A DNA stretch of 43,892 bases from a virus. The notes below the pieces were generated by a model. It worked only from the letters and a program-made list of their open reading frames with translations, was not told where the DNA came from and did no database searches. The DNA lies in IMG/VR virus record IMGVR_UViG_3300020203_000717, positions 1 to 43,892 of that record. One strand, given 5' to 3'. The position numbers were made by a program, and so were the translations under genes. This document shows, piece by piece, positions 973 through 42,799 of this stretch; the first letter of the stretch is position 1, and every line of letters begins with the position of its first letter.

Positions 973-974
973 AA

Positions 975-1367: not shown

Positions 1368-1418
1368 CATTGTTGATTTTATCCAGTATGAAGGTTTCCT
1401 AATTTTGGAGGAAATCAC

Positions 1419-1613: not shown

Positions 1614-1660
1614 ACGTGGCGTCGATTCGTCGGGGGCGAGGCATGAACTACGGCATGGGA

Positions 1661-2936: not shown

Positions 2937-3415
2937 AGGAGTTTCTCGATCTTGGTGAGGTCTTCTTTTTGATATCCAAGGCTCTTACATAGATCAAGAA
3001 TCTCCTCCGGACTAGCCCCCTTTAGGAATAGCTTGGTTTCCTCGGGTTTCGCATCGGGGTAGATTTCCAACACCATCGCGGTCAGGGGATCGACCTTCTT
3101 TATCCCCTTGGGCCGGGTAAATCGGTGTTTCATGGGATGGCCCGTCCCGCACGCGGCGAGAAGCTTGGCTCTCATCCGGGGGTTCGTTTTGAGATTCCCC
3201 CAGAGTTCGTTGGCGGTGTCATCGAACTTCTCGATCATCCCCCGATGACCACTCTCGGTCACCCCACCGGTCATCCACTGGGGAATGAGCCAACCGACTT
3301 GGGTTTCGAACTCTTTGAGCATTTCGGGATCATCCGACAATTGATCATACACGGTGAAGTCCCGAAGATCGAGATGTTTCAGGATCAGGAACAGGTCTAT
3401 CTGGGGCTTCGCCAT
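2933..3415 (-). CDS. Probable clamp-loader small subunit (gp62-like)
   Basis: A 160-residue protein. Its pattern fits the phage clamp-loader A (gp62) family: an N-terminal FTVYDQLSDD segment, QVGWLIPQWMTG, a central stretch with NPRMRAKLLAACGTG and basic KHRFTRPKG, and a C-terminal helical unit VLEIYPDAKPEETKLFLKG then SPEEILDLCKSLGY. In T4, gp62 forms a complex with gp44 that loads the gp45 clamp on DNA. gp44 and gp45 are not in this window. The assignment rests on pattern only, since the family is poorly conserved. Its neighbours (PolIII-like protein, UvsW, UvsX, gp32) fit a replication role. It starts 2 bases after the previous stop and has no strong ribosome site of its own. Confidence 0.5.
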   Translation of the reverse strand: MAKPQIDLFLILKHLDLRDFTVYDQLSDDPEMLKEFETQVGWLIPQWMTGGVTESGHRGMIEKFDDTANELWGNLKTNPRMRAKLLAACGTGHPMKHRFTRPKGIKKVDPLTAMVLEIYPDAKPEETKLFLKGASPEEILDLCKSLGYQKEDLTKIEKLL

Positions 3416-9898: not shown

Positions 9899-11242
9899 CT
9901 ATTGATTTTTCCATACATATCTGAGTTTTCCGCAATCCCATATTTTTCCCATATCCTTGGTCCGTTCCCTTTCGGATATCCCATCTTTTCGACGAAACCG
10001 CGATTTGTGATATCTTTTTTTGCTATCCAGATCGACATATGAATAATCGACCGCCACATTCCCATCCAACACAAATCCGTTCTTCGTATAAACAGTTCCA
10101 GAAAACCAACGCCGATCCAAATATGTAACGACATCCCCGGCTTCCGCAGTACCGAATTTTTTCATAAACCGGGACAACAAGCCGGGAACGGCCACTCGAA
10201 CGCAATACCGTTTCAATTCCCACGGGTAAGAAATGGTTTGGCGTGTGGGTTTTCCGTATACGGCAACCCCCACCAAGATATCATCTTGATACGCCCCATA
10301 TCGTATGGTTCCAGACGCCGAACCTCCAATATGATGGGTGTTCAAAAATGTATTCGACTCCATGAGGGATATTTCGCGGATTTTCAATTTACGAGCGTGA
10401 ATTTTTATAGTCTTTCCTGTCATCAATTGTAACGCGGTCTTCACTGCCGTTTGGCGGTCTCTCCACTCATCCTCGTTAATATGAATTAATCGGATCGCCC
10501 GCTTCTCCGCGAGATTGGTTTTATTGATGTGATAATCTTTTGTTTTACCCGTGTAGAATCTTGGATTTTCACAATGCCAAAACAGCCCATTATATTCGAT
10601 ACCTATTTTTTGTTCCGGCAAATAGAGATCAATTTCTTTGCCCAAGAGAGAACGATTTCGTTCTTCCACGTGAAGCCCAATAGATCGTAAATATTCACCA
10701 ATCTCGCGTTCTCCGCGAGATTGGCGCTTGGCACATATCGGACATCCCATTCCACGAAGATGATCATGAATCAATGGATTCCATACATGACCCAGTGGGC
10801 ATACAACCCGAATTTTGTCATGAACTAGCATATCGGTTTTCGTTTCCCACTGAGTTCCGACAGGCTGAACTAAATTGACCCGCTGAATAAATTCGGAATA
10901 TGTTACTCTCCGTTTTAATCCTCGTTTTTTGAACGAACATTTCGGACAACCACCCAACCCTCTTCGGCGTTGAGATTCGACTTTTTGATACGTGCCGTGG
11001 ATTTCACACGAAAGGGTAATTTTGTCCCTTGTACGGATGGCGTCTCCCCATCGCATCTTAGTTCTACGAACAACAGAACACTTCGGACAACCCGCCCCGT
11101 TTGCATGTTCACAAACTAGCTGGTTGAAAATACCATGAATTTCACATGTTATTTTTATTTTCTGATGGGCTCGCAGAGGCGTTTCACAATATGAATATTT
11201 CTCACCGTGCCGATCTGCTATTCTTTGTTTCCAATCGGTCAT
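9899..11242 (-). CDS. Free-standing homing endonuclease, Vsr-like/EDxHD type (HEG-A)
   Basis: A 447-residue member of the family of phage homing endonucleases with a very-short-patch-repair (Vsr-like) nuclease fold. The N-terminus has three zinc-ribbon-type units (CEIHGIFNQ...GCPKC at 33-55, CEIHGTYQK...GCPKC at 79-102, CPLGHVWNP...GCPIC at 148-170). The nuclease follows: GEREIGEYL, KEIDLYLPEQKIGIEYNGL and FWH (about 177-223), with D205, E216 and H223 the likely active-site residues. The C-terminal third has a compact fold with LVGVAVYGKPTR, VPGLLSRFM and TYLDRRWFSGTVYTKNGF, resembling GNAT/Mom-like acyltransferases. The ATG overlaps the terminase stop (ATGA), so it rides on gp17 translation. 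Its DNA is visibly more A+T-rich than its neighbours, which suggests transfer. Confidence 0.85.
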   Translation of the reverse strand: MTDWKQRIADRHGEKYSYCETPLRAHQKIKITCEIHGIFNQLVCEHANGAGCPKCSVVRRTKMRWGDAIRTRDKITLSCEIHGTYQKVESQRRRGLGGCPKCSFKKRGLKRRVTYSEFIQRVNLVQPVGTQWETKTDMLVHDKIRVVCPLGHVWNPLIHDHLRGMGCPICAKRQSRGEREIGEYLRSIGLHVEERNRSLLGKEIDLYLPEQKIGIEYNGLFWHCENPRFYTGKTKDYHINKTNLAEKRAIRLIHINEDEWRDRQTAVKTALQLMTGKTIKIHARKLKIREISLMESNTFLNTHHIGGSASGTIRYGAYQDDILVGVAVYGKPTRQTISYPWELKRYCVRVAVPGLLSRFMKKFGTAEAGDVVTYLDRRWFSGTVYTKNGFVLDGNVAVDYSYVDLDSKKRYHKSRFRRKDGISERERTKDMGKIWDCGKLRYVWKNQ

Positions 11243-14200
11243 ATCAATGGCATCACTGGGTTGTTTTCATCAGAATAATCATCCTCGGGATCAAAATCGT
11301 CCAACACATCGACCCGAATCATATCATCTAGTTCTGGTTCCTGAATTCTCAACTCGTCAATGAGCATCATCATTAATACGCAGGACATAACGATGTCGTC
11401 CTTCGATCCCTCTTTCGCACGCCACGAGGGACCGGTTCGAACGAACGTCTTCAACTGACTCACCAATCGATCCGATCTCGGAACGAACAAGTTTCTCTCG
11501 ATCAGGGATTTCAATTCCAACCCATACCGACGCTTCGATCCCACTGAGGTCCAAAGACCCCTCCATCGGTGTGGTTTATTGAACCCACCGGGGTCTCCCT
11601 TGGCGTTTACGGTGGTCATGGTGGCATCGACGAAGTTGCCCGGGAAGGTTTCGGGACCCATCACATCAATCACGCTGATAATGCCCATTCCGAGCCCGTT
11701 ACGTTCGATTGAGTAATAAATGTCACATCGGCCCAAGTCATGGTCGGGATCATCGTTCTGGGTCGAATAAATCGTTTCTAGGACCCGTTTGAGCATCTTC
11801 GCCTGTGTGGGCTGGTCCGCCTTGTTGTTGTTCCATTCCGCGACCTGAATCATACTGGGGTGTTCCCAGACCTGAATCACCGCATCGTCCGCATCCACGC
11901 CCTCGGAGGGGTCCAACACAACCAAATAGCCCGTATTGGGATAGATTTCCTCAAACCAACGAACCCCCCAACGGTCCACATATTTGGGCGGTCGGACACC
12001 CTCTTTCAGAACCGCCAGCTTCGCGGGACTAATCAGGGTGGGATCGGAGGAGATGAAGGAGCAGGCGAATTCGCGATTCCATTGGGAATCTGTGAAGCCC
12101 GCCTTGAACATCTTCTTCTTGAAAGCTTCTCCCCGGTAGGAAACGATATTTCCCCGAGCGTCAATCGCCTCGGGAGCCACCGTCCACGGTGCAAAAAATC
12201 CAGAGAAATTCACCGAAAGAGAAACTTCCACGGTAAGCGTATCTCCCGGGGAGAACGGCACCGAGGGATCGATTTTGAAAGTCTCGTGGTCAATGATTGT
12301 GAACAGGGACGGAAGTAGATGGCGTCCGTTCACCGAGATGGTTGTTTTGCTCTTGAGCTTGGGAATCTGTATCTTACACGTGTACGTGAACAGATTCGCG
12401 ACCGCTGTCATCTCTTCCTTAATGACATCGGTGGAATCATCATTCATGTTCGCACCGGAAAGTCGATCCTGTTCAAGGGTAAACTGTTCCTCGACTTCCC
12501 TCGTCGCAAACATAGTCTCGTATACTTCTTCCACTTCGTTCGCCGTGTGTTTCCGGGGCGAGTATACGTCTTGCCAATCCCAACTCGTTGGATGCATTTT
12601 GCAATTCAACCAAATCTTGGCGAATTTATCCTCGTCCGTGTTGGGAGTGCTCGTGATAATACACTTACCTCCGGCGGCGAGGACCGGAAAGATTGAGGTC
12701 CAGAACGCCTCTGCGATTCCCGGTCGGACGAACGAGAATTCATCGAGGTAAAGTAGGGAAATTGACATACCGCGTCCGGAACTTTCGGTGGTCGCGAGCG
12801 CCTTGATCTCGGTTCCGTTATCGAATTTTTTCGTTTGAACATCGTTCGTGATGATACCCGGCTTGATCCACCACGGAAGCTCCTCATAGGAGTACCAAAA
12901 CCGTGATAGAATATCCTTCGCTCCGACGTGATCCTTGGAGAGAATGAGAATCTTCTGATCTGGTTTGAAACACGCCCACCACAACACATAACCAGCAGCG
13001 CACTGCGTGTTGTGGGTAGGAATCATACTCTCACTACACAAGAACATATGGCTTTTATGTTCTACCTCAATGCATCTCACCGGAACATTATCTACTTTGG
13101 TAATAGTGTGAATATAATGGTGCTCGTTTTTCGGATGACCCATGCACTTTTCTTGAAGAATGTTTTTTCGATCCAATCCGAACACAACATGATCTATGGT
13201 TGAAAAAGACAGGGTATGATACAATTCTCCATTGACGATTTTTTCTCGAATACGATTCTTGATTCCCAGTGTGGACAACAACTCACGAACCGATTCAATA
13301 AACTCTCGGCTTTTTTGATAGAATTCACATGCACCTCGTGGGGTAGCGTGACCATCGGAGTCCATTAACCCACGAAGAAGGTCCAATCGCTGTGAAACTG
13401 ATCCTCTCAAATACTCCTTCGGAATGTGCTTATTTTGTCGTACACCAGTAGCACGGAGACCAGCATGAAGTTTATAGATGGTCCAACGCCCATTATTTTC
13501 GGTACGGGTGTCTTGTCTCCATTCTCCAACATCATAGCCGCAGGCTTTCACTCGTTCAGATAATGACGGGTAGTCCTGACGTGACGATGAAATCAACCCT
13601 GTTTGCTTGTCGCCGTCTCCTAACCACAAACCCAACACATAAGGATGAATTGCATAGGTCTTAGTTTCTAATTCGAGAGATTTCGTCTTCCTAATACGTA
13701 CGGGTTGGTCCTGTTTCTGAGACTTTTCCAATAATGGAATAATTTCCAATGTCGTGAGAATCGTTTCTTCGTTATTACGATAGACCGGTGTTGATATCTT
13801 CCACAAATGTTCAGCGTCCGCGACGATCTCTTGACCATTATCAAATATGAAACGATAGCATGGCCGGTCTGTCCTGATGGGATGAGCCTTAACAACACGG
13901 GTAATGGTACCATCTTCCGCGAATAATTCGTCACCGTCCTTCAATTCCCCCATAGTTGTCCAACCAGTAGGGGTAGGAATTTTGCATGATACGTGCAAAC
14001 TTTTTCCCGTCTGCCTCGAAAGCATGGCAATCGCGTAATGCGTTTCATCGTAGAAGCGAATAAGTTTTTCTTGATAATCGAATAGGTTGAACGGAAGCGA
14101 TCCCTGAACGGGGTGCTGGAGCTTCACATACTTCCGGATGAAGTAGATCGGGTCATTCGCGCACTTGACCAGTTCGGATAGCTGATCGGGCGTGTACTGA

Positions 14201-14256
14201 TGAGCGAAGTTGGCGGGCTTGTGTTTACCACCTTCGTGTTCTTTCAACCTAGGCAT
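11239..14256 (-). CDS. 17: Large terminase subunit gp17 with in-frame intein
   Basis: The packaging motor: ATPase plus headful nuclease. Counted from the ATG, the 1005-residue precursor contains an intein at about residues 86-416, leaving a 674-residue mature protein. The intein interrupts the P-loop: the exteins join as SRQTGK-TQCAAGYVLWW, which aligns residue for residue with T4 SRQLGK-TTVVAIF. Walker B is LLYLDEFSF, and STPN is the coupling motif. The C-terminal RNase H-like nuclease shows VVLDPSEGVDADD, YYSIERNGLG and SKDDIVMSCV. Between ATPase and nuclease lies an extra beta-rich segment of roughly 80 residues (about 617-695) absent from T4 gp17. Start: ATG at 14256 with GGGAGG upstream; a TTG 15 bases earlier lies inside that site. 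A late promoter core sits just upstream. Confidence 0.95.
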   Translation of the reverse strand: MPRLKEHEGGKHKPANFAHQYTPDQLSELVKCANDPIYFIRKYVKLQHPVQGSLPFNLFDYQEKLIRFYDETHYAIAMLSRQTGKSLHVSCKIPTPTGWTTMGELKDGDELFAEDGTITRVVKAHPIRTDRPCYRFIFDNGQEIVADAEHLWKISTPVYRNNEETILTTLEIIPLLEKSQKQDQPVRIRKTKSLELETKTYAIHPYVLGLWLGDGDKQTGLISSSRQDYPSLSERVKACGYDVGEWRQDTRTENNGRWTIYKLHAGLRATGVRQNKHIPKEYLRGSVSQRLDLLRGLMDSDGHATPRGACEFYQKSREFIESVRELLSTLGIKNRIREKIVNGELYHTLSFSTIDHVVFGLDRKNILQEKCMGHPKNEHHYIHTITKVDNVPVRCIEVEHKSHMFLCSESMIPTHNTQCAAGYVLWWACFKPDQKILILSKDHVGAKDILSRFWYSYEELPWWIKPGIITNDVQTKKFDNGTEIKALATTESSGRGMSISLLYLDEFSFVRPGIAEAFWTSIFPVLAAGGKCIITSTPNTDEDKFAKIWLNCKMHPTSWDWQDVYSPRKHTANEVEEVYETMFATREVEEQFTLEQDRLSGANMNDDSTDVIKEEMTAVANLFTYTCKIQIPKLKSKTTISVNGRHLLPSLFTIIDHETFKIDPSVPFSPGDTLTVEVSLSVNFSGFFAPWTVAPEAIDARGNIVSYRGEAFKKKMFKAGFTDSQWNREFACSFISSDPTLISPAKLAVLKEGVRPPKYVDRWGVRWFEEIYPNTGYLVVLDPSEGVDADDAVIQVWEHPSMIQVAEWNNNKADQPTQAKMLKRVLETIYSTQNDDPDHDLGRCDIYYSIERNGLGMGIISVIDVMGPETFPGNFVDATMTTVNAKGDPGGFNKPHRWRGLWTSVGSKRRYGLELKSLIERNLFVPRSDRLVSQLKTFVRTGPSWRAKEGSKDDIVMSCVLMMMLIDELRIQEPELDDMIRVDVLDDFDPEDDYSDENNPVMPLI
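13009..14001 (-). other. Intein in gp17 with LAGLIDADG endonuclease, class 3-like
   Basis: The insertion is 331 residues, from Ser1 (SLHVSCKIPTPTGWTT) to ...MIPTHN, followed by Thr+1. It carries the non-contiguous Trp-Cys-Thr set that defines class 3 inteins: Trp in block B (ADAEHLW), Cys at block F position 4 (PVRCIEVE) and Thr in block G (PTHN). Most class 3 inteins lack a nucleophile at position 1; this one has Ser, so class 1 splicing is not excluded. The central homing endonuclease has two LAGLIDADG-type motifs, VLGLWLGDG and LLRGLMDSDG, both with their acidic residue, so it may be active. The insertion point in the ATPase P-loop means that unspliced protein cannot hydrolyse ATP. Confidence 0.92.
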
Positions 14257-14271
14257 CCGTATCCTCCCCAA

Positions 14272-15195: not shown

Positions 15196-15412
15196 CGATG
15201 ACCTGACGGGGCTTTTCGAGGCGGAACAGCACGATGGTGTAATTCTTGATGGCGGCGGTCTTGAGCTGTTCTGCGACGCGCTGCTTCACGTTGCGCGTGG
15301 TTTGCCCTACCTTGAGCAGACCTTTGTGCGCTTCGTCGGCAATCGCGTAGGCGTAAATGCGCGGACGTGCTTCCGGCTTGGGCTCAAGGATTTCCTCTAT
15401 GGTTTTACTCAT
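15077..15412 (-). pseudogene. Truncated GIY-YIG/T5orf172-type nuclease start
   Basis: From ATG 15412 the first 60-odd residues ([55 protein letters not shown]) match the T5orf172/GIY-YIG-like N-terminal domain that begins certain bacterial restriction helicase-nucleases. After about NYTIVLF (near 15224) the similarity stops, and the frame runs on as arginine-rich sequence antisense in character to the neighbouring methylase fragment. The start overlaps the end of the methylase pseudogene by 8 bases, the arrangement expected in an intact operon. So the two were once adjacent genes, and a deletion fused this gene's start to the M/S fragment. Confidence 0.6.
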
Positions 15413-16556
15413 CGTCGTCGGAAACTGCGTCGTCGGACGCGTCGCTGGTGAGGTCCATCGGGCGGACAATCTTTTCGATGAAAGCGATCTCGTCGTCGGT
15501 AAGGCCATACCGATCATAGAGGTCGGCATCAGTCCATTTCTTCGTCCACTCTTGGACGGGGACAAAAGTATAGACCTTGCGAGTGGTGTCCTGAGAAGGC
15601 TTGTGTAGAAGGATCAAAAGACGTGTCAGGCGGCAGGTTAAGTAAGAAATCGCGCTTTCGGCTTCGTCCTTTGTGGCGAACGGGCCGATGCACAGGTAAG
15701 TTTCCGACGAGATCGAGCCTGGCCCAGCAACGAACGGCGTGCTGATGATCCGGTGCGGGTAAGTGTCCCTGTTTCCTGTTCCTGGCGCGGCGCGACCGAC
15801 GAATATCTTCCATGCATCAATCAGACCGCCACCTGCGGTTATGGCATTCCGAGCAATATAACCCGTTCCACCGTTCTGATAAACGAGCAGATCGTCGTCA
15901 GAATGCTTCTTAATCTTTCCCTTGAACTTGGTCTCGAGCCCGAATGGCTTTCGCGAACTGACGAGCCTCTCAAAGCGCTGGGTTTCAGGCAACGCCAAAA
16001 TCCCGCTCTGCCCGGTTTCACGGGCGATGACTTTGTGGAGGATCGACACGCCTTCGTTAAAGCGGATGAATATATCCGCGCCATTCTCCAGGAGCGGCCT
16101 TGTGACTTCAGAAACCGGCCAATCCTTGAAATGGGTTGCAACGCGGCAAGGTCCGCGATTTTCCTTGTCCCAAAGGAAATAGCAGACACCGCCTTTCAGA
16201 CCGACGCCGGGAAACACATCGGCAGCGCTTAAGTAATCGTTGATCGAACGCATCCGGTTATCGGACAACATCGACGCGCGGAAATCATCAAGACCTTTGC
16301 CTCCTGCGAACCAACGCGAAGGGATGACCATCGTTAGATATCGTGGCTCGAGCTTTTTCGCCTGTTCCACGAACAGCTGGTAGATTGGCGCTGCGCTGGT
16401 ACCGTGCCCGCCGTCGTCAAGTTGATAGGGCGGGTTTCCAATGATCACGTCGAAATGCATGTCGCCCCAAACAGCTCGGCGATCCGAGGCTTGATATCGT
16501 CGGTGTGGATGAACGCGTAGGCGTGGGACCGCTGCTGCCGACTTCGTAAGTGTCAA
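15405..16556 (-). pseudogene. Eco57I-type adenine methylase, 5'-truncated and frameshifted
   Basis: The C-terminal two thirds of a restriction-linked N6-adenine methylase: [15 protein letters not shown] (catalytic NPPY), [37 protein letters not shown], then a target-recognition-like region up to [20 protein letters not shown] and an acidic tail. Before DMHFD the frame turns to nonsense. The continuation is found one frame over as [20 protein letters not shown], which places a single-base deletion in the G-run opposite 16465-16468. Nothing matching the AdoMet-binding GxG motif remains further upstream; the sequence ends abruptly near 16545. The gene is thus dead twice over. Its genetic order with the GIY-YIG fragment fits a bacterial restriction island. 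Confidence 0.7.
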
Positions 16557-18527: not shown

Positions 18528-20768
18528 TCAGATGAGTCCCTCAAATAAGTCGGTTTGTCGGGCTTCACGATCCATAAGTTCCACAGGACCGCCCCAAAGT
18601 TGACTGACGTGGTACATCATCTCGGTTCGATTCTCCACCGAGAGCGAGCGGGAACGACGATCCGTATGCCGCAGATGCAGAGTGCGGGACTTGCGGGACC
18701 ACTTCTTGACCTCGATCACCGGAGTATGGGTATCCCATTCCTGCATCTCAGCAAGCTTTTCTCGAATTCTCTGATACCCGCGATCATCATGGATCGACTT
18801 AACCACGAAGTGATCCTTCACCTTCTCATCGTATACGTGGAACATTCCGAAATCTCGGATCACCTTCGGGGAGAGGAATTGCAGGATAAACGACTCGTCT
18901 CGATAGTTCACCACCGAGTCCTTCACGGTCTGCCACGGGTCCTGTCCGACCATATCGGGGAACCACCGTCGATCCTCCTCGGTCGGATTAGAACAAATCC
19001 GTTCCATGTCCCGCATCATCTCGAATCCGAGTTTATACGGATTAAACCCGGAGTAGTGCGGACTACCGATCTTCGGCTGGTTCAAAACCCCCGAGTGGAC
19101 AGAGAGAAATTCCAAGTGGGCTCCGTCCGTGGTCAGGCCCTTCTCGTGCAAACGATTCATAATCTTGTAGTGCACGGTCGAGGCAAACCCCTCGTTCATG
19201 ATCTTGGTCTGACTCTGGGGGTAAAAATATTGGGCCACTTTGCGAACGATACGGATCAACTCGCGTTGCCAGCCTTTGATGTCTCCGTATTTTTCACAGA
19301 AATACAGAAGGTTCTCCTCGGGGTGTTCGGGGAAATCCCGATCCTCTGGGTCCACCTCGGAATTCTTTTGAACCACCCGAGGGGCGATTCGATCCAGTTC
19401 ACTTACCCGGGACTGCAAGTACTCGTCCTTCTGACGGTCCATCTCTTTCCGGATGTTCATGTTCACTTTACTTGGACGGTGGTATCGGTTCACCCCGTAA
19501 TCCATCAACGCGTGGGCGGAATCCAAAAACGCTGCCACTTCGGACTCACCGTATTTTTGCTCGCACTTCGTCACATAGTCTCGGGCGAATACCAGATAGT
19601 CCACGATGGCCGCAGCGTCGGTCCATTGGCGGAACAGGTAGTTGTTCTTGAAGAAATGATTGTGTCCCATCCCCGCATGGGCCAATACCAACGCCTGTAG
19701 CGTCATAGTATTGTCTTCCATCAAGTAGTTCACACACGGATCGGAATTGATCACCAACTCATAAGCCAGTCCGGATCGCCCCTGTTTGTAGGATTCCTGT
19801 TCCCGTACAAACGATTTACCGAAGCTCCAGTGATTGTACATGATGGGCATCCCGATGGAACAATTGTGCATGGGGTAACCATCCACAATCATCGTTCCGG
19901 TCGAGGTGGTTATTTTGACAATGGTACGAATTCCAATCGGAGTCACGGATACCACTTCTTCAAAAGAATCCGTCTTCATCAGACCAAGACGATCAAAAGA
20001 CATATTATTGATCAGCCGTTTCGGCTGATTTTCTCCAAGAAATTGGAGACGATTCCGTACTTCCCCGAGAATAGCTACTCGTTTGCATTGATCGTGCTTC
20101 CGATTACGGACGGTCACTTCGTGGTTCTGATCACGAATTAGACGTACCACTTCATCCAACACCGGTCCGGAATTTTGTGCCAATCCAAGATGATGCAATC
20201 CGCCTCTAAGAATGTTCCCTTCTTCATCGAACATTCCAGCAAGCCATCCAGATTCTTTCGTCGTGAATTCGGACCAGACATCGAGAACCTTCGGAATACG
20301 ATGCGGAGTATATCGCTCCGTATCTGCTCCTCGAAGTTCATCGGTTCGTTTCCAATCAAGACGTGATGCTTGACCTTTCGACATTCTAACCAACCATTTG
20401 TGTTCCGCTGTAGCTTTAATCTTGTGCCCAGAAGACAACAATACCTCAAATACAGGTTCTTCGGCCAATTCCACACGAGAAATTACCGCCGAACGATAAG
20501 ACCGAAATGGACCGTTTTCATCAAATCCAAGAATGTTCATACCCACAGTAGCTTCCCCGGCGGGAATCCAATGAAGGTCTTTCGTCAAAATCAAATGATC
20601 GGGGGTGACACAATATGCGTCCAGCATTTGCTCCGAACCAATGATTTCAATCTGGTTCGGATACGTGTCCAATCCCATCTCACCATGTCCGATGGCCTCG
20701 ATCTCATTGAACACTTCATGGAGGCATTTCATGGTCCACTGAGAATCGGTCCAGATTGGCTTGGTCAT
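18528..20768 (-). CDS. SpoVR/YcgB family protein with in-frame intein
   Basis: The precursor is 746 residues. After removal of a 250-residue intein (residues 53-302) the mature protein is 496 residues, close to E. coli YcgB (510). The exteins match the SpoVR family strongly: LDTYPNQIEIIGSEQMLDAY joins to CSIGMPIMYNHWSFGK, then YELVINSDPCVNYLMEDN, HAGMGHNHFFKNNYLFRQW, NLLYFCEKYGD, RIVRKVAQYFYPQSQTKIMN, WFPDMVGQDPW and ESFILQFLSPKVIRDF. SpoVR is needed for spore cortex formation in Bacillus and is linked to stress physiology in enterobacteria; its biochemistry is unclear. It is the third gene of a PrkA-YeaH-SpoVR run in the bacterial order. AGGAG lies 7 bases before the ATG, 8 bases after the YeaH stop. 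Confidence 0.93.
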   Translation of the reverse strand: MTKPIWTDSQWTMKCLHEVFNEIEAIGHGEMGLDTYPNQIEIIGSEQMLDAYCVTPDHLILTKDLHWIPAGEATVGMNILGFDENGPFRSYRSAVISRVELAEEPVFEVLLSSGHKIKATAEHKWLVRMSKGQASRLDWKRTDELRGADTERYTPHRIPKVLDVWSEFTTKESGWLAGMFDEEGNILRGGLHHLGLAQNSGPVLDEVVRLIRDQNHEVTVRNRKHDQCKRVAILGEVRNRLQFLGENQPKRLINNMSFDRLGLMKTDSFEEVVSVTPIGIRTIVKITTSTGTMIVDGYPMHNCSIGMPIMYNHWSFGKSFVREQESYKQGRSGLAYELVINSDPCVNYLMEDNTMTLQALVLAHAGMGHNHFFKNNYLFRQWTDAAAIVDYLVFARDYVTKCEQKYGESEVAAFLDSAHALMDYGVNRYHRPSKVNMNIRKEMDRQKDEYLQSRVSELDRIAPRVVQKNSEVDPEDRDFPEHPEENLLYFCEKYGDIKGWQRELIRIVRKVAQYFYPQSQTKIMNEGFASTVHYKIMNRLHEKGLTTDGAHLEFLSVHSGVLNQPKIGSPHYSGFNPYKLGFEMMRDMERICSNPTEEDRRWFPDMVGQDPWQTVKDSVVNYRDESFILQFLSPKVIRDFGMFHVYDEKVKDHFVVKSIHDDRGYQRIREKLAEMQEWDTHTPVIEVKKWSRKSRTLHLRHTDRRSRSLSVENRTEMMYHVSQLWGGPVELMDREARQTDLFEGLI
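19863..20612 (-). other. Intein in SpoVR, class 1 with one LAGLIDADG-like motif
   Basis: The intein runs from Cys1 (CVTPDHLILTKDLHWIPA) to the terminal PMHN, followed by Cys+1, the standard class 1 residues. Block B is GHKIKATAEHKW with TxxH. The middle part holds one clear dodecapeptide, GWLAGMFDEEGNI, so the endonuclease is small and the partner motif is degenerate or lost. The insertion splits the highly conserved DAY-SIGMP segment of SpoVR. Confidence 0.9.
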
Positions 20769-20776
20769 TCGAACTC

Positions 20777-22039
20777 CTAACGCTTAGCGAATATGTTACG
20801 AAACACGGGTACTATCTGGGATTCGTCGCTGATTTTGACCATAAGCAAATTATCCGGGTTCGCCTTACTCAGGGGACTGATAATCTCATCGAGTTCAGTA
20901 ATGTAGGAATCATTATTCCCCCACATTCCCGACGTGGGCCGAACTTCCAAATACATCATGAACTGCACGATCTGGAGCAATTTCCCGATCTGCTCCACAC
21001 AGGCATCCGCGTCATCCATGGTATTGTCCCCATCGGAGACCTGAGCCAAATAAATATTCCAATCCGTCGCGGGATATTTCTTCCGAAGAATCTCCAAACT
21101 CAACTCATACGCGGGAGACACAATAGTACCCCCGGTCTCACGGCTAGTGAAGAAAGTTTCCTCGTTACACTCGGAGGCTTCCTCATGATGCCGGATAAAC
21201 ACGACTTGTACATTTTTGTATTGACGCCGCAGAAACCGATTCAACAAGAGGAAGAACTTCTTCGCGATGATTTTGTGTTCTTCGCTCATGGAGAAACTCA
21301 CGTCCATCACGCATACCATGACGGCCTGTGAAACGGGCTTCTTCACCATAACCCGGTTATTATACCGGAGATCGATGTCGTCCAAGAAACCCACGGCGTT
21401 TGCGCGGATACGCAGGGCGGATATCTCGGCTTCGATCTCAAGCAACCGCTCCGCATTGGCGTGCTTTGCCTCTTCTTCCAATTCCTCAATCTGACTCGTC
21501 TTGGGGTTCTTCAACGCAATACGCCGACCAATACCCGACATCATGGTCTTGATCACGTTCAAATTCGCTGGAACCCCCGACGTGGTATATCCAGCACGCT
21601 GGGATTCCAACACGACACTGTTCTTATCCGAGGTCTTGGTGAGATTGGGAAGCTCCAACCCCTCGAAAATCACATCGAGGAATTCTTCATAGGAGATGGC
21701 AAACTCGAAATCATCATCTCCGGAATCGCCACTCCCCCCGGCACCGCCGCGACCACTAGCGCCCCCACGGGGTTTGAAAATCTTCTCCCCCACGATGTAG
21801 GTGTCGTTTCCGCTCACCACATAATCTTGCTGTCCCGTCGTCGGATCATGACGAAACTTCTCTTCCTTCGTGCTCCCACCATTGATCTTTACATTGGTCG
21901 GACCCTCGTCGTTGATCGATCTCTGACCAATCGTCTTCTTCGCGGATTCCTTCACCGCTTGCTTCACTCGGTCCATAAATCGGCGGCGATTGCTCAGCGA
22001 CTTCGACTTGGGATTCTTTCGCCGGTCAATGATATTCAT
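20777..22039 (-). CDS. YeaH/YhbH family (DUF444) VWA-like protein
   Basis: A 420-residue protein, close to E. coli YeaH (427). It has an N-terminal basic region (DRRKNPKSKSLSNRRRFMDR, then VKQAVKE), a Gly-rich linker (about 125-145) and a C-terminal von Willebrand A-like domain whose MIDAS starts VMDVSFSMSE (DxSxS). This is followed by FIRHHEEASE, RETGGTIVSPAYEL and YLAQVSDGDN. DUF444 proteins are encoded between PrkA and SpoVR in many bacteria and are thought to work with the kinase; the mechanism is not established. The same three-gene order is kept here. GAGGA lies upstream of the ATG. Confidence 0.93.
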   Translation of the reverse strand: MNIIDRRKNPKSKSLSNRRRFMDRVKQAVKESAKKTIGQRSINDEGPTNVKINGGSTKEEKFRHDPTTGQQDYVVSGNDTYIVGEKIFKPRGGASGRGGAGGSGDSGDDDFEFAISYEEFLDVIFEGLELPNLTKTSDKNSVVLESQRAGYTTSGVPANLNVIKTMMSGIGRRIALKNPKTSQIEELEEEAKHANAERLLEIEAEISALRIRANAVGFLDDIDLRYNNRVMVKKPVSQAVMVCVMDVSFSMSEEHKIIAKKFFLLLNRFLRRQYKNVQVVFIRHHEEASECNEETFFTSRETGGTIVSPAYELSLEILRKKYPATDWNIYLAQVSDGDNTMDDADACVEQIGKLLQIVQFMMYLEVRPTSGMWGNNDSYITELDEIISPLSKANPDNLLMVKISDESQIVPVFRNIFAKR

Positions 22040-22086
22040 TTACGCATTCCTCAGAGTTCTACACGATACACTAGGAAGTGTACCCC

Positions 22087-24024
22087 TCATGAACTTTTCT
22101 GGATTCTCATATACCAGTCTACCAAGCGGCGGGTTTGCCGTTCTGTGTAGCCCTTGATCTTCATACGATCCACGAATTCACCGTGCTTCTTTTGCTCCTC
22201 GGCACTCGCCTTGGCTCCGAACGAGATCACCGGGAGAAGATCGGCGACCTGACTGAACATCTTCTTTTCGATGACCTTCTTGAGCTTCTCATAGCTGGTC
22301 CACAACACCGGCTTGCCCTTGGTGGCTTTCTGTCGGAGGACGAAATTCACGACCTCGTTTCGGAAATCCTTCGGGTTCGAGATCAGTGCCGCCTTTTCGA
22401 TCTTCTCCAACTCGTTATTCAAAACCTCACGGTTGAACAAGTTGCCCGTGTCGGGGTCCTTGAAATCGATTTCCTGCATCCAGTGATCCGCGTAGGCGAT
22501 ATATCGGTCGAAAAGGTTCTGACCATAGTCGGTGTAGGATTCCAGATATGCGGTCTGAATCTCGTTCTCGATATAGTCCTTGTACTCCTTGGAGAGGAAG
22601 TCCTTGATGTAGCTCAAGTACTTCGTCTCGACCTCCTCCGAGTACTGTTCCCGCTTGAGTGCAGACTCCAGTGTGAGCATAAGATGCACGGGATCGGCAG
22701 AAACTTCCTCAGTGTCGTGGTTGAACGTCTGCGAAAGCGTCTTGAAAGCGAATCGCGTGGATACTCCGTTCATACCCTCATCGACACCGGCATCGTTACG
22801 GTATTCTTCGATTGACTTCGCGCGAGGATCGATGTCCCGCATGTTATCGCCATCGTAAACGCGCATCTTCGAGTAAAGATTCGAATTCTCGTGGTCCCGC
22901 AAACGGGTCATGACACAGAACTGCGCGAGCATCTTGAGAGTTTCAGGCGCGCAATTCGCATTTTTCAAATCAGAGGCTTGGAGCATTTTCTTGTAAATCT
23001 GCTCCTCCTCGGTCCTCCGCAAGCAGTAGGGAACCTTGATCACACAAACTCGGTCGATGAACGCCTCGTTGTTCTTGTTCGCCCGGAACGCCTGCCATTC
23101 ACTTTCGTTACTGTGAGCTAAAACCATTCCGTTGAACGGGATTGCGCCGATAGCCTCGGTTCCCACATAGTTCCCTTCCTGCGTCGCGGTCAACAGGGGA
23201 TGGAGAACCTTGATCGGAGCCTTGAACATTTCGACGAATTCCATCAACCCCTGATTCGCACGGCAGAGGCCGCCCGAGAAGGAATAGGATTCGGGATCGT
23301 TCTGGGAGAATTTCTCCAATTTACGAATGTCGGTCTTGCCCACCAAGGACGAGATATCCTGATTGTTGTCGTCACCGGGTTCGGTCTTGGTGATTGCCAC
23401 CTGTTCCAGCCGGGACGGCATCATACGAGAAACGGTGAACTTCGTAAGATCACCACTGAATTCCCGAAGCTTCTTAATCGCCCACGGGGAAGCGATCTGG
23501 TTCAGATAACGGGCATCAATACCATACTTCTCGGCAAGGTCCTTACCGAATTTGACCGCACTGAACAGGCCCAACGGGGATTCAAATACCGGGCTGACCT
23601 CGGTTCCCGCAGTGAGCACATAAATCGGATACTTCTCCATCAACGCCTTGAGCGTCTCGGCCAAGCTGGACTTCGCCGCACCAACGGGACCCAACAGGTA
23701 CAGAATTTGCTTCCGCTCTTCCAAGCCCTGTGCGGCATGACGGAAATAACCCACGATCCGCTCAATCGTATCTTCCATCCCGAAGAACTCGGAAAACGCC
23801 GGATAGGTCAGGATGGTACGATTCAGATAGATTCGCGAGTACCGGGGATCAGTGCTGGTATCCAGCTTCTTGGGCTCGCCAATCGCCTTGAGCATCCGCT
23901 CCGGGGCGGTCGCATACGCGAGAGGATCACTCTTGCATAGCTCCAAATAATCCAAGAGGGACATATCCGTTGTACGGGATTCTGTGTAATTCTGCCGGAA
24001 TGCTGCGAACAAGTCCAAATCCAT
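22087..24024 (-). CDS. PrkA/YeaG serine protein kinase homologue (AAA+)
   Basis: A 645-residue protein matching PrkA/YeaG almost exactly in length (YeaG 644). It opens with SLLDYLELCK, followed by a PrkA-type AAA domain: PERMLKAIGEPKKLDTS, FFGMEDTIERIVGYF, Walker A GPVGAAKSSLAE (usually GPVGGGKSS, here with AA). Later come PLGLFSAV, GLCRANQGLMEFVEMFKAP, GMVLAHSNESEW, RVCVIKVPYCLR and a C-terminal kinase-like region with DPDTGNLFNREVLNNEL. In bacteria it is induced by starvation and has reported kinase activity. Start: ATG 24024 with GAGGAG upstream; a TTG at 24081 is possible but lacks a ribosome site. It is the first gene of the triad. Confidence 0.93.
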   Translation of the reverse strand: MDLDLFAAFRQNYTESRTTDMSLLDYLELCKSDPLAYATAPERMLKAIGEPKKLDTSTDPRYSRIYLNRTILTYPAFSEFFGMEDTIERIVGYFRHAAQGLEERKQILYLLGPVGAAKSSLAETLKALMEKYPIYVLTAGTEVSPVFESPLGLFSAVKFGKDLAEKYGIDARYLNQIASPWAIKKLREFSGDLTKFTVSRMMPSRLEQVAITKTEPGDDNNQDISSLVGKTDIRKLEKFSQNDPESYSFSGGLCRANQGLMEFVEMFKAPIKVLHPLLTATQEGNYVGTEAIGAIPFNGMVLAHSNESEWQAFRANKNNEAFIDRVCVIKVPYCLRRTEEEQIYKKMLQASDLKNANCAPETLKMLAQFCVMTRLRDHENSNLYSKMRVYDGDNMRDIDPRAKSIEEYRNDAGVDEGMNGVSTRFAFKTLSQTFNHDTEEVSADPVHLMLTLESALKREQYSEEVETKYLSYIKDFLSKEYKDYIENEIQTAYLESYTDYGQNLFDRYIAYADHWMQEIDFKDPDTGNLFNREVLNNELEKIEKAALISNPKDFRNEVVNFVLRQKATKGKPVLWTSYEKLKKVIEKKMFSQVADLLPVISFGAKASAEEQKKHGEFVDRMKIKGYTERQTRRLVDWYMRIQKSS

Positions 24025-27861: not shown

Positions 27862-28065
27862 ATGATTGTCGTCGTTTTCAACAATGATGTGAATTCAGCG
27901 TATAAGAAGCTGAAAAAGAAGATGTTCGACGAGGGCGTGATCCGGGAACTCCGGGATCGCCGCTTCTACGAGAAGCCCTCGGAGAAGAAGCGTCGGAAAC
28001 GCGCAGAATCAATCCGCCGGATCAAGAAAGACAGCCGGATTCGGCGTCGCGAGTTGGGTTTCTAG
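27862..28065 (+). CDS. rpsU: Phage-encoded ribosomal protein bS21
   Basis: A 67-residue homologue of bacterial bS21 (71 in E. coli). It aligns along its full length: YKKLKKKMFDEGVIRELRDR corresponds to the bacterial RRFKRSCEKAGVLSEVRRR, then RFYEKPSEKKRRKRAES (bacterial EFYEKPTTERKRAKAS) and a basic tail ending RIRRRELGF. bS21 binds 16S rRNA on the 30S platform near the anti-Shine-Dalgarno sequence and aids initiation. Phage copies, known from Pelagibacter and other phages, could replace host bS21 and redirect initiation. The gene has its own late promoter core and a GGAAG ribosome site. Its stop codon overlaps the stop of the convergent homing endonuclease by three bases. A diverged copy of its last 29 bases lies at 29693-29721. 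Confidence 0.93.
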   Translation: MIVVVFNNDVNSAYKKLKKKMFDEGVIRELRDRRFYEKPSEKKRRKRAESIRRIKKDSRIRRRELGF

Positions 28066-29678
28066 GAGTTCCACGCCCACCGGGTTTTTCCACAGTCCCA
28101 GATACGGTCGTATTGGAGTCCGAACATGATTTCGGATTCCGAACCCCGTGGAAATCCCACCTGACGCAACCGGGAAGTGCGAAACCGGGATTTGTTAATT
28201 CTGGATTTCTTCCCCACGTACGCATAGTCGGGAGGGATGTCTCCATCCCGAGTGAATCCCATCCGCTCGTACAATCCACCGAGGAATAAACGGTTGTCCG
28301 AGAAACTCACCACCGATTGGGGTTGGTGTTCCCGGATGTAGGTCTGGAACATTTTCGATCCCAACCCGGGAAACGATCCGGTTGAGCAAAAACGTCGAAG
28401 CTCAACGGGATGTCCGGACTGGCGAGAGGGCTTCGCGAAAATCATCACCCCAACGAGGTGATCCCCCAAGAATGCCCCCAAGGCGGTGCTGATCTGACAC
28501 CGCCCCTGAACATGATTCAAATCACAAAATTCCCCAGCGAGCTTCTTTCCAATCTCCTCAACCCTGAGGGACCTCGCTCCCGGCCCCCGTGGCGTGGCTC
28601 CGAGGGCGTTCTGGATCAATCCCCGGACACACGTGGGGCGTTCCAGCCATTCATCCTCGAACACCGTAAGGAGGCGGATTCCCTGCTTCCGGCACCTCTC
28701 ATACTTGTCCCAATGATAGAGACGATCCTTTCCGCGTTCTTCGGTGTGCCAGTACAGTCCACAATACTCGATAGCGAGGTTTCTCTCGGGTACCCAAATG
28801 TCGAGTTCTCGGTTTCCCAAAATTTCACGATTTCGTCTTTCCGCCGGGACTATTTGATTGACAAAATCATAAATTTCCCGTTCCGCCTCGGATTCGATCC
28901 TACCACAGGTGGGACATCCATACCCGGTCAGATGATCCGCCGGGGTTTGATTAAACACCCCGTGTTTAATACACTTGATCTCGACCTTCTCCAACGCCTT
29001 TACATAATCGGTTCCCGTGTAATCAAATTTCGCCCCATGGACGTTCTCGGCTTTCGCGACGAACTCCGGGGTATTGGATTGGACCTTCCCGCCGCACTGG
29101 GGACACCCGTGACCGGTGAGATGATTTCCCGGGGTCTGTTCGAAATCCCCGTGGTGGGAACAGGTTATGGTGAGTTTATCCAATCCGGTGCGGTATACGG
29201 CGCGATCATATCCGTATCGATTCCCGTGTTGGGCGCGGGCCTTCTTGACAACGGTTGCAAGATCATGAGTGCGTTTCGACACGCGTTGGAGAATCCCACA
29301 TTGGGGGCATCCGTACCCGCTCAAATGACCCGCCGGGGTCTGTTCGAACTCCCCATGACTGGTGCAAACGATGGTGACCCGTTCGGTGGCTCCTCGATAG
29401 TGAACCCGGGAATAATCATACCGAGACCCATGCACGGCGTGAGATTTCTCGATGAATTCATCCGAACTCGACCGGGCTCGCTTCTTTTTCCCACATCCGG
29501 GACATCCGCGACCGTTCAAATGGGAATACGGAGCCTGCTCGAACCAACCATGATTCGAACACCCAATGGTGATTTTCCCAGTGGCCCCCGAATAAACCGT
29601 ACGGGTGTAGTCATACGTCTCCCCGTGGACCGCAACCGCGCTCTTCAAATACTCCGTCGTGGTTAATCTACGTCCCAT
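28062..29678 (-). CDS. Homing endonuclease, Vsr-like/EDxHD type (HEG-B)
   Basis: A 538-residue homologue of HEG-A. It has five zinc-ribbon/repeat units (HGWFEQ...GRGCPGC, HGEFEQTPAGHLSGYGCPQC, HGDFEQTPGNHLTGHGCPQC, HGVFNQTPADHLTGYGCPTC and a less complete one), then the nuclease (SEAEREIYDFV, ELDIWVPERNLAIEYCGLYW, H) and the GNAT/Mom-like C-terminal part (LVGVMIFAKPSRQ, PGLGSKMFQTYI, GGLYERMGFTRDG), ending IWDCGKTRWAWNS. Its stop codon is built from the complement of the rpsU stop (CTAG), so it abuts bS21 exactly. Its ATG overlaps the end of HEG-C by 11 bases; AGGA lies 8 bases upstream. Such enzymes cut an uninvaded allele so that repair copies the gene across. The obvious target is the rpsU 3' end. 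Confidence 0.85.
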   Translation of the reverse strand: MGRRLTTTEYLKSAVAVHGETYDYTRTVYSGATGKITIGCSNHGWFEQAPYSHLNGRGCPGCGKKKRARSSSDEFIEKSHAVHGSRYDYSRVHYRGATERVTIVCTSHGEFEQTPAGHLSGYGCPQCGILQRVSKRTHDLATVVKKARAQHGNRYGYDRAVYRTGLDKLTITCSHHGDFEQTPGNHLTGHGCPQCGGKVQSNTPEFVAKAENVHGAKFDYTGTDYVKALEKVEIKCIKHGVFNQTPADHLTGYGCPTCGRIESEAEREIYDFVNQIVPAERRNREILGNRELDIWVPERNLAIEYCGLYWHTEERGKDRLYHWDKYERCRKQGIRLLTVFEDEWLERPTCVRGLIQNALGATPRGPGARSLRVEEIGKKLAGEFCDLNHVQGRCQISTALGAFLGDHLVGVMIFAKPSRQSGHPVELRRFCSTGSFPGLGSKMFQTYIREHQPQSVVSFSDNRLFLGGLYERMGFTRDGDIPPDYAYVGKKSRINKSRFRTSRLRQVGFPRGSESEIMFGLQYDRIWDCGKTRWAWNS

Positions 29679-31587: not shown

Positions 31588-31597
31588 CAATCCCACC

Positions 31598-31604
31598 CTA
31601 AATA
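31598..31604 (+). promoter_or_regulatory. Putative late promoter core (CTAAATA) for gp19
   Basis: CTAAATA on the plus strand, 41 bases before the gp19 ATG. It lies in the leader of HEG-C, just upstream of that divergent start. Confidence 0.55.
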
Positions 31605-31645
31605 CTCCGTGCTCAATATAGAGCATTTATCGTGAGAAGCAATCC

Positions 31646-36774: not shown

Positions 36775-36790
36775 CAAACTGGATGAAGCA

Positions 36791-36851: not shown

Positions 36852-38075
36852 TTACATCCAAGTGAGGTTGCCGGAGTTGATACCGACCGTTCCCAGATAG
36901 TCCTTGGAATTACCCAAGCTGGAAGCGGTGTTCGTGAACTGCACATATCCGTATCTGGAATAAAATGAGGTCACAAATTCGAACGTGTTCGGATCGACAA
37001 CCACACCGTGCGTGGTCAGCGGTACGTACGGGCAATAGAAGGTGGCTGCGTCGATCTCAGACGGACCCTTGTAACCGATGAGAATCGGTGTGGAGTCATC
37101 TGCGTAGGTATCGACGAAGAGCTTCATCGCGTTGTTCATTGTGCCGACGTACTTGTTGTTCGTCGGAGCTTCGAAGTTGCCTTCGACGGTACGAACGAAC
37201 GCGCTTGCACGAGCGGATTCAAGAATCGTCAGGACGGTCGGGGAAACGACTGCCCAGTTGCCCTTACCACGACGGGTGCGGGTGGCGATCTTGTTGGCTT
37301 CGCGGTTCATCAACACTGCGAGAGCAGCGAAGTAGTCCACGATGGAGTTCGGCTGGCCGGTAGCAGCGGCAATGTCGAACGTGTTCACTGCGGCAGCCGG
37401 AGGCGGAAGCGCACGGAGCGAGCGGAGGATTTCCTGATCGATTTCGACCACGATTTCCTGAGCGACTGCGTTCACCAGTTCCTCTTCAACGTCCACACCG
37501 TACTGGTTGCTGGCGTCGGTCTGTGCTTCCACAGTCCAACGAGCGGCCAAACGACGAGTGCGGGCATCGACCGTCTGCTTGAGCATCTCAAGCTTCAAGA
37601 CGTTACCCGGAACGCCTTCCAATTGCGCCGTGAGCGCACCGGCAGGCATTGCGGCGTTCTGGTTACCCGAGAGCGCAACCGCGAGATCACGAACGTGCAA
37701 CGGGGCCATTGCTTCCTCACCGCCGATTACGCCAGCGGTCGCAACGGTGTTGCCATACGTGTAACGCATGGTCATGATCTGAGCAGTCGGACCCGGCATC
37801 GGCTGAACACCGACGATTTCATTCGCAATCACGTTCGGCAGAACGCGGCGGATGATCGGCAGAATCACCTTGTTGAGGGTCGCGATGTTTCCGGTGGAAA
37901 CCGCCGAAGCCGACGCATTTTCCATCAGCATACGCTGGCGGGAAACGTAATCGTTCCGGGTGGAATCCAAGCACAAGCTCAGAATACGAGCCTGCTTCTT
38001 GTTCAATCCCTCGCAGAGGACATCCTTGATTGCCATCCACTTCGTGTCGGGAGTCATCTTAGCTACATGCACCAT
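36852..38075 (-). CDS. 23: Major capsid protein gp23
   Basis: A 407-residue HK97-fold capsid protein of the T4 type. The signature stretch is present: VLPNVIANEIVGVQPMPGPT, AQIMTMRYTYG, then GVDVEEELVNAVAQEIVVEI, the central GKGNWAVVSPTVLTIL, FVDTYADDSTPILIGYKGPS and the C-terminal AATFYCPYVPLTTHGVVVDP with SFYSRYGYV. It is shorter than T4 gp23 (521), mainly from a shorter N-terminus and insertion domain, so prohead cleavage by gp21 probably removes little. AGGAG lies 11 bases before the ATG, and a CTAAATA core is 37 bases upstream. It is the last gene of the head operon, with a strong terminator behind it. Confidence 0.95.
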   Translation of the reverse strand: MVHVAKMTPDTKWMAIKDVLCEGLNKKQARILSLCLDSTRNDYVSRQRMLMENASASAVSTGNIATLNKVILPIIRRVLPNVIANEIVGVQPMPGPTAQIMTMRYTYGNTVATAGVIGGEEAMAPLHVRDLAVALSGNQNAAMPAGALTAQLEGVPGNVLKLEMLKQTVDARTRRLAARWTVEAQTDASNQYGVDVEEELVNAVAQEIVVEIDQEILRSLRALPPPAAAVNTFDIAAATGQPNSIVDYFAALAVLMNREANKIATRTRRGKGNWAVVSPTVLTILESARASAFVRTVEGNFEAPTNNKYVGTMNNAMKLFVDTYADDSTPILIGYKGPSEIDAATFYCPYVPLTTHGVVVDPNTFEFVTSFYSRYGYVQFTNTASSLGNSKDYLGTVGINSGNLTWM

Positions 38076-40726: not shown

Positions 40727-42799
40727 TTAGAACGGACCGCCGCCCATACCGTCATCTCTCGGCGGGGGTGCGTAAATTTGAGCGACAATCTTCCGCCTCT
40801 TCTCATTCTCGATTCGACGAGCCATATGAGAGAGACGAATCTTCCTGATGACTTCGAGTTTCACCCGAGAGGCATCATCCTTGAGGGGATCGTTAGCCAT
40901 GATGGAACGGTCATTCGGGGTTCCCATCACGACTTTGCCCGAGCCAGTCCCAGTTTTAGAATCGGGAGCGACGATGTCGGAGGACTTGATATCCTCATGA
41001 AGACGGCGATTCTCTTCAAACAGAGCATCGCGTTGTGCCAGTGTGGTCTTTTGTGGTTTCTTCATTGATTCGCCCATTCCTCCTCCAAGCGGGGCCATGG
41101 TGGCTCCACCGCCGCCCATATCCATTCCACCGCCGCCCATATCACCCCCGCCCCCGTGTGGGGCCATATTCGCGTTTGCGGGGCTTTGACCCATCATCGG
41201 TGGTCCCGGAGGAGCCATTCCTCCACCACCCATGGCGTCTTCGGGATTCGTATTGAGTTTGTTCGTCTCGTCCTCACCCGCGTTCAACTCCTCGGCCTTC
41301 ATCCGCTCATTCTCAAGCAGATCGTCCTCGGTGATGCCCATCGTGTATGTGGCCCACCAACGCTTGCTCAACCAAGATTCGTCCTTGGCCTGTGTCCACA
41401 CCCCAATAGCTTCGGCCAAACGGGCAAGCTTCTTCGATTCCTCGAAATTGTCTGGAGGGATCAACGACAGGATGAAGTCGGAAAAATTGATATTGAGATC
41501 ACGCCAGTTGCAGTAGAGTTTGAATTCCTCGTCGAACGTGTCCTGCAAAATATTCTGGAGCTTGCGGCAATGCCGGGAGAATTCAATCTCCTCCTGATAC
41601 GCCGTACCCACCCGACCATCGCTGAACATGGCTCCGCCCTTTGTCGGACCCAGCATCCACGCATAAGGAACGCGAAAGCCACGGAAGAGCTTTTCGTTCA
41701 TGTATTCTAGCTCGGGAAGGTTGTCCCACGACTGGCCCTCAAGCATGTCCACTTTCGATCCCTTTTGATCGAAACGGAGAGGAATGAAGATGTCTTCAAT
41801 CTGCGATAGTGGCGAGAACACTGAATCTACCGTGCGTTCTCCACTTCCCTGATTACCCACACTGGGGGTTCGACGCTGGTTCAACTCCTGCTTGAACTGT
41901 TGCACCATCGTCTGCGCCATATCCGGACGAGCACGACCCGTGTCGATGTACCAGACCAATCGGGAACTCGCTCGTTGGAGTCGATGAATAACCGCACTCT
42001 GTTCGACCATCTCACGCTGACGGAACGTCCCATAAAGCGGCTCTAATAGGGACTCGCCGAAGGGGAACCGTGTGGTGTGTCGATCCTGAGGTTCGTCCAC
42101 CGAGGCTGATCCCGCATATGCACCTTCGGCCAAACTCAGATGGATCAAGTGGATCGCGGGAAGAACCCGCATTTGACGCACCGAGGTGTTCGTGGAAATA
42201 TTCGAGTACGCCTGTTTGTACTTCGAGGAATCCACCGCAAGGTCGAGGTTTTCGACATCGAACTTGAAATTACGAATCGCCCACGCCTCGACCTCGTTCG
42301 TCTCGGGATCGACGAAAGCCCCGATCACATGCTTGGGATGCAAATTATAAAGCTGGAACGTATTTGGATTTCGGAAAAGGAACCAATCTCCATACTTGAA
42401 CACGTTTCGCGCAATCTTGCTGATACGCTTGCGCCACTTGTTCAGGTTCGACCACGTGATCAACGCGTTATAGAGGATCGAGGATTCCTGTTCGGTGGGA
42501 TTTTCAATCTGCCACTCGAACTCGAAGAAATACCCTTCTTTGTCTCCCTGCGTGCACTGGTCGGCAATCATCGTCAACGCACGGGACACGTCGGAGTCAC
42601 GGTCCATCCAATCATATCGCATATAGGCTTCACGACGATCCCACCGACCGCGCATCATTCTCATCGTGCGGTCATCACCGGACTGGACCAGCCCCCCACC
42701 CCATACGGAATCTCCAGAAACCTGCTCCAGAGAAAGCCGCTTTCTCTTGCGATGCGCCATATTCGGGGATACGACCGTGGTCCAATTCGTATTCGTCAT
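40727..42799 (-). CDS. 20: Portal vertex protein gp20
   Basis: A 690-residue portal protein (T4 gp20 524). It carries the characteristic RREAYMRYDWMDRDSDVSRA, LNKWRKRISKIARNVFKYGD, HPKHVIGAFVDPETNEVEAW, VIHRLQRASSRLVWYIDTGR, LPELEYMNEKLFRGFRVPYA with WMLGPTKGG, and GRVGTAYQEEIEFSRHCRKL. Dodecamers form the ring through which gp17 pumps DNA, and the portal nucleates the head. After about residue 500 comes an extension of some 190 residues: a Gly/Met/Pro low-complexity stretch (GGGGMAPPGPPM type), then a charged helical tail (RKIRLSHMARRIENEKRRK). GGAGG lies 5 bases from the ATG, and a GTAAATA core is just upstream. It is the first gene of the head operon. Confidence 0.95.
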   Translation of the reverse strand: MTNTNWTTVVSPNMAHRKRKRLSLEQVSGDSVWGGGLVQSGDDRTMRMMRGRWDRREAYMRYDWMDRDSDVSRALTMIADQCTQGDKEGYFFEFEWQIENPTEQESSILYNALITWSNLNKWRKRISKIARNVFKYGDWFLFRNPNTFQLYNLHPKHVIGAFVDPETNEVEAWAIRNFKFDVENLDLAVDSSKYKQAYSNISTNTSVRQMRVLPAIHLIHLSLAEGAYAGSASVDEPQDRHTTRFPFGESLLEPLYGTFRQREMVEQSAVIHRLQRASSRLVWYIDTGRARPDMAQTMVQQFKQELNQRRTPSVGNQGSGERTVDSVFSPLSQIEDIFIPLRFDQKGSKVDMLEGQSWDNLPELEYMNEKLFRGFRVPYAWMLGPTKGGAMFSDGRVGTAYQEEIEFSRHCRKLQNILQDTFDEEFKLYCNWRDLNINFSDFILSLIPPDNFEESKKLARLAEAIGVWTQAKDESWLSKRWWATYTMGITEDDLLENERMKAEELNAGEDETNKLNTNPEDAMGGGGMAPPGPPMMGQSPANANMAPHGGGGDMGGGGMDMGGGGATMAPLGGGMGESMKKPQKTTLAQRDALFEENRRLHEDIKSSDIVAPDSKTGTGSGKVVMGTPNDRSIMANDPLKDDASRVKLEVIRKIRLSHMARRIENEKRRKIVAQIYAPPPRDDGMGGGPF

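Follow-up and report, generated by a model that had tools for sequence, protein, structure and literature searches.

The PrkA-YeaH-SpoVR set is among the most conserved of bacterial stress modules. In Escherichia coli, YeaG (PrkA family) and YeaH together form a joint 'metabolic brake' in nitrogen starvation, where survival needs both proteins and recovery is slowed (PMC4664914, PMC10954441), and in Bacillus anthracis neither kinase nor protease activity was detected for PrkA, which oligomerises with ATP (PMC13001217). The bacterial genes (YeaG, YeaH and YcgB in E. coli; prkA-yeaH-spoVR in Alphaproteobacteria) share their families, order and strand with the locus described here, and their PrkA is 60-68% identical to its own; our locus differs in being phage-borne, in the placement of its proteins in separate all-viral clades, and in carrying an AAKS P-loop in PrkA and an intein in SpoVR.

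Neither the three families nor their occurrence in phages is new. The Ralstonia jumbo phage RsoM2USA, which has a long latency (270 min), encodes SpoVR (ORF28) and PrkA (ORF30) two ORFs apart (PMC8504454), although these were published as single annotations rather than as a module; it was not among the matches in our search of a phage collection, and the comparison is by description only. In viruses of the ETNP oxygen-minimum zone, spoVR is the most abundant sporulation AMG (PMC8940887). The Thermus phages phiYS40, phiLo, MN1 and Lalka8 likewise have VWA, SpoVR and PrkA genes together, but these are 21-32% identical to ours, stand in the order VWA-SpoVR-PrkA, and have P-loops reading GPVGTAKS or GPPGSAKS. 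Closer in layout are the jumbo and huge phages LR745206 and LR756504 and the IMG/VR contigs L020 (415 kb) and L024 (578 kb), which have the same trio in the same order; the latter two are close viral kin of our locus, yet their P-loop is an intact GGGKS and their SpoVR lacks an intein. The first-pass annotation of this DNA mentioned single members in other large phages, for which there are indeed published precedents, and the whole trio proves to be common as well. As far as could be searched, three features are undescribed: a complete trio that is widespread in phages and passed on vertically as a module, the occurrence of inteins at two sites in SpoVR, and the convergent alteration of the P-loop.

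Gene content and operon layout

The window, by which we mean the whole stretch of DNA analysed, is a complete IMG/VR record of 43,892 bases (Table 1). The gp20 portal, gp23 capsid, T4-type terminase (gp17) and UvsX-like genes all lie on this one 43.9-kb contig, and because they are present we assign it to a T4-like myovirus, as had been proposed at first pass. The neighbours of the trio are late genes (gp4-like, tail tube, gp23, gp20, terminase). The canonical T4 late promoter TATAAATA was not found within the window, and a DNA-level search returned no match between the window and named phages.

Table 1. Coordinates of features in the window and, in the last row, on a related contig
Feature	Position	Strand	Evidence or detail
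spoVR with intein, 746-aa precursor	18528..20768	-	Pfam SpoVR 2.2e-147 (two stretches), SpoVR_C 1.9e-9
Intein in SpoVR, 250 aa, C1 ... HN/C+1	19863..20612	-	profile, AF2 model, fold matches
yeaH / DUF444 (VWA-like), 420 aa	20777..22039	-	Pfam DUF444 1.3e-134
prkA (yeaG-type AAA+ protein), 645 aa	22087..24024	-	Pfam AAA_PrkA 1.7e-166, PrkA C-terminal 8.6e-67
P-loop / Walker A GPVGAAKS (bacterial GPVGGGKS)	23670..23693, approximate to a codon	-	sequence, survey, tree
Hairpin TACACT-TCCT-AGTGTA	22067-22082	-	perfect, small
Terminase large subunit, intein-interrupted after P-loop SRQTGKS	11239..14271	-	intein C-terminal region, LAGLIDADG_3, Terminase_6N
Intein in terminase large subunit	~13006-13998	-	ends THN/TQC, two LAGLIDADG-like motifs
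gp23 major capsid protein	36852..38075	-	Pfam Gp23 1.6e-85
gp20 portal protein	40727..42799	-	Pfam Portal_T4 1.3e-55
HNH/homing endonuclease, Mom-like ORFs	9899-11242	-	phrog_559/3339
	28062-29678	-	phrog_559/3339
	29668-31626	-	phrog_559/3339
	32492-33940	+	phrog_559/3339
	34837-36777	-	phrog_559/3339
Eco57I-type methylase-like ORF	15405-16556	-	
Hexapeptide-repeat protein, 127 aa	17762-18145	-	left-handed beta-helix
ORF of 308 aa	24085-25011	-	no match in Pfam, PHROG or NCBIfam
SpoVR ORF of contig L035, with second-site intein in conserved HAAxGHNFFFK motif	11427-13856		

The trio comprises three intact minus-strand ORFs with Pfam and NCBIfam matches far beyond chance, arranged in the same order as at bacterial loci (compared: L102 and L181), which confirms the complete single-strand module that had been reported. 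PrkA scored 1131 bits against the NCBIfam PrkA equivalog (PRK15455; cut-off 576) and YeaH 458 bits against PRK05325 (cut-off 396), placing them in the PrkA/YeaG and YeaH/DUF444 families, and the MIDAS motif of YeaH (DxSxS) reads DVSFSM in a motif survey. The statement that all three products are near bacterial size was wrong for SpoVR, the ORF of which is enlarged by the intein at residues 53-302. A solved PDB relative exists for PrkA (9xip), and a PDB search found none for YeaH or SpoVR.

We read prkA, yeaH and spoVR as one operon because the gaps between them are short, 47 nt from prkA to yeaH and 8 nt from the end of yeaH to the start of spoVR, and because each is preceded by a Shine-Dalgarno-like sequence. 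The start of prkA is taken as the ATG at 24024, which has the Shine-Dalgarno sequence AGAGGAG; a longer ORF starting at TTG reaches 24081. The 47-nt gap contains a perfect small hairpin, which may tune expression.

Inactivating changes in all three genes, a possibility raised at first pass, were not found: the ORFs are intact, and bacterially invariant positions are kept at 192 of 203 sites in PrkA, 46 of 53 in YeaH and 66 of 68 in SpoVR. Residues K116, R232 and K426 are retained in the window PrkA, and E. coli YeaG mutants at these positions fail to complement (PMC4664914).

Ancestry and spread of the module

In the PrkA tree, the window falls in an all-viral clade of 12 rows with 100% SH-aLRT support, which is nested in an all-viral clade of 31 rows (94%); the 29 proteobacterial rows fall outside both. 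The trees of SpoVR and YeaH give the same picture, and the nearest kin there include L020, L035 and L024. We take the operon to be phage-native, acquired long ago from bacteria and passed down in one lineage of large phages, T4-like and jumbo.

Bacterial contamination, a chimeric assembly, or a decaying recent acquisition from the host would offer a trivial explanation for such a locus. Misclassification is possible for IMG/VR contigs, a gp20 or terminase match is missing from many trio records, and in the lambda-like Enterobacter phage LAU1 (L005, positions 1-3308) yeaG and yeaH stand at the extreme end of the record; these two genes are near-identical to L085 and resemble flanking or transduced host DNA more than a phage module. 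For the window, this explanation is already refuted and we give it a negligible probability: gp20, gp23, gp17 and UvsX flank or accompany the trio on the same contig, every ORF is intact, a contig from another metagenome (L011) is 99.98% identical across the locus over 10.6 kb, and the phylogeny, where the first-pass annotation would have looked for recent host contamination, puts all three proteins in all-viral clades.

Far from being unusual in phages, the trio is both widespread and old there. A search of IMG/VR with PrkA yielded 122 encoding stretches, those long enough mostly carrying the trio, and a search with SpoVR yielded 336. Co-occurrence of the three families, the check that had been proposed, was found at 76 of the 78 viral SpoVR loci examined; the remaining two start less than 300 bases upstream of SpoVR, which leaves the other genes out of view. 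Since IMG/VR labels alone are no proof of viral origin, trio records were searched for hallmark genes: 7 of 50 contained a gp20 portal and 18 of 41 matched a terminase, three of these matches being weak and under the family cut-off. Among the hallmark-positive records are contigs of 342, 415 and 578 kb together with four huge-phage genomes of 595-642 kb.

An intein within SpoVR

Two stretches of the SpoVR ORF match Pfam SpoVR and the part between them an intein domain, and an NCBIfam intein-containing family matches residues 51-304. The intein starts at Cys53 and ends in GYPMHN302, followed by Cys303, and its insertion point lies inside the conserved motif DAY/CSIGMP...HWSFGK, where intein-free relatives read DAY[S/A/T]S[V/I]GMP. 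The unspliced ORF scored 665.6 against the NCBIfam SpoVR equivalog, just below the cut-off of 679, and the 496-aa protein spliced in silico scored 688.3, which places it in the family; by this measure the extein is a normal SpoVR.

All PDB profile matches of the insert are inteins, its AlphaFold (AF2) model has a mean pLDDT of 94.9, and the best 50 PDB fold matches listed are inteins or related Hint autoprocessing domains. With C53, a block B of T..H71, H249-N250, a +1 Cys and the Hint fold, it belongs to the class 1 inteins, and since Cys1, TxxH and HN/C are all kept it is likely to be self-splicing. Class 1 LAGLIDADG inteins form a phage family found in DNA polymerase, HNH and other proteins, with kin in mycobacteriophage terminases; the window's intein shares their terminal Cys1, TxxH-type block B, HN/C end and Hint fold, and differs in that its host protein is SpoVR. 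The literature search found no paper mentioning SpoVR and intein together.

Homologous inteins occupy one SpoVR site in phages of three divergent lineages, namely that of the window, that of L092/L093 (50% identical, with Ser as the +1 residue) and that of L187 (36% identical), the latter two also carrying the whole trio. Within the window's own clade, L035 has a different-looking SpoVR intein at a second site, HAA/C...GN/CGHNFFFK. We consider it likely that the window's intein is a selfish element only, with no bearing on function: it keeps a single LAGLIDADG-type motif (WLAGMFDEEG), its relatives are inserted in many unrelated phage proteins, and the same contig contains another intein, in TerL, as well as five endonuclease ORFs of the HNH family. 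Conditional splicing is no more than conceivable; the recurrence at one site in three SpoVR lineages might be held against the selfish reading, though homing alone accounts for that recurrence. The window genome as a whole is crowded with mobile elements, the HNH-family ORFs being five large paralogues within 44 kb, and the terminase intein is the other of its two inteins in Table 1.

The PrkA P-loop and the possible role of the module

The altered Walker A motif noted at first pass, GPVGAAKS, is real in both the sequence and a motif survey, and it departs from the canonical GxxGxGKS while retaining the Walker lysine. Bacterial PrkA P-loops read GPVGGGKS in 100 of 100 cases (81 + 19, mostly Proteobacteria), and in some phages GGKS is replaced by AAKS, SAKS, SSKS or TAKS. 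On a PrkA tree built with the P-loop masked there were 7 P-loop changes, at least 5 of them forced by well-supported branches, from which we take the change in phages to be convergent. The majority of trio phages, jumbo phages included, retain GGGKS.

An AKS P-loop is also the natural state of E. coli RavA (GPPGIAKS), the gene of which adjoins viaA. RavA is an active ATPase, so that the motif is compatible with activity and inactivation of the phage PrkA is unlikely; an inactive PrkA was therefore set aside as the less likely outcome given the AKS of RavA and the retained catalytic residues. By this analogy, the AAKS P-loop probably retunes the PrkA ATPase rather than killing its activity. RavA-ViaA and other MoxR AAA+/VWA pairs resemble the phage pair in having an AAA+ ATPase beside a VWA protein and an AKS P-loop, but they constitute a separate AAA+ family that PrkA matches weakly (19.4 bits for the window PrkA against the RavA equivalog, cut-off 681, which excludes membership). 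PrkA may thus work like RavA, though it is no family member.

Membership of the PrkA family stands as first annotated, and the label of kinase is doubtful; an AAA+ remodeller is favoured over a kinase because the B. anthracis PrkA has shown no kinase or protease activity (PMC13001217). In the mechanism that we propose, PrkA would act as an AAA+ ATPase or remodeller and YeaH as its MIDAS-bearing VWA adaptor, in an architecture as in RavA-ViaA; the pair would act on or with SpoVR, the active form of which would arise only after the intein had spliced itself out. During infection the module would impose or sustain the starvation-survival ('metabolic brake') state of the host, and for the duration of a long infection this brake would keep a nutrient-limited host viable and its resources under control. 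Conserved HAxxGH and NEGxA motifs in SpoVR raise the idea of a metallopeptidase, which we do not claim, as the AlphaFold model of a phage SpoVR (pLDDT 85) had no PDB fold match with E < 0.001.

Because large phages keep all three genes together, we regard these as one machine controlling something that phages need. The active control of host physiology suggested by the first-pass annotation is supported in part: the genes are phage-native, old and conserved, and the action of YeaGH as a metabolic brake in E. coli under nitrogen starvation (PMC10954441) makes it plausible that they serve in hosts that are starved or stressed. We put the probability of a phage-borne brake that keeps starved hosts viable through long infection at roughly 50%, the direction of its effect being what we infer.

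Two main rivals compete with the brake: gene position hints at a late role in assembly, and the P-loop at a dominant-negative decoy. The location of the trio in the late/structural region speaks against a brake and could indicate a role in virion assembly, in which the AAA+, VWA and SpoVR proteins would have been repurposed as a remodelling chaperone that acts late, in the assembly of heads or tails or in packaging; besides its late neighbours in the window, the trio lies between portal and TerL in the Thermus phage Lalka8 and near TerL in phiYS40. Such a role is nonetheless unlikely, as conservation of the bacterial type and the bacterial gene order are retained, the late-region position may merely reflect timing, and most T4-like phages lack the trio and assemble without it. 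A phage PrkA with an impaired P-loop might instead poison the PrkA rings, and hence the brake, of the host and keep it metabolically active. The glycine preceding the lysine can matter for nucleotide binding in other P-loop proteins, and the glycine pair has changed repeatedly in phages (in the 7 changes above) and in 0 of 100 bacterial PrkAs; yet the active RavA has AKS at the same position, Lys116, Arg232 and Lys426 are retained, GGGKS is kept in most trio phages, and a decoy would have no need to conserve YeaH and SpoVR, all of which makes this reading quite improbable.

Returning to the brake, a broader reading that we offer tentatively is that large phages of many lineages maintain a complete starvation-control machine, the P-loop of which has been re-engineered independently (GG to AA, SA or SS, unseen in sampled bacteria) into a retuned or host-orthogonal brake; inteins homing into SpoVR active-site motifs would make splicing a further step in activating it. 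Manipulation of dormancy by phages would bear on viral persistence in starved oceans. The recurrent change in the P-loop and the intein insertions in two motifs of SpoVR mark out functional sites, so that a mechanism can be tested.

Three further ORFs of the window may be mentioned: a hexapeptide-repeat protein adjoins the operon, a 308-aa protein is encoded directly upstream of prkA, and there is also a methylase-like gene of the Eco57I type.
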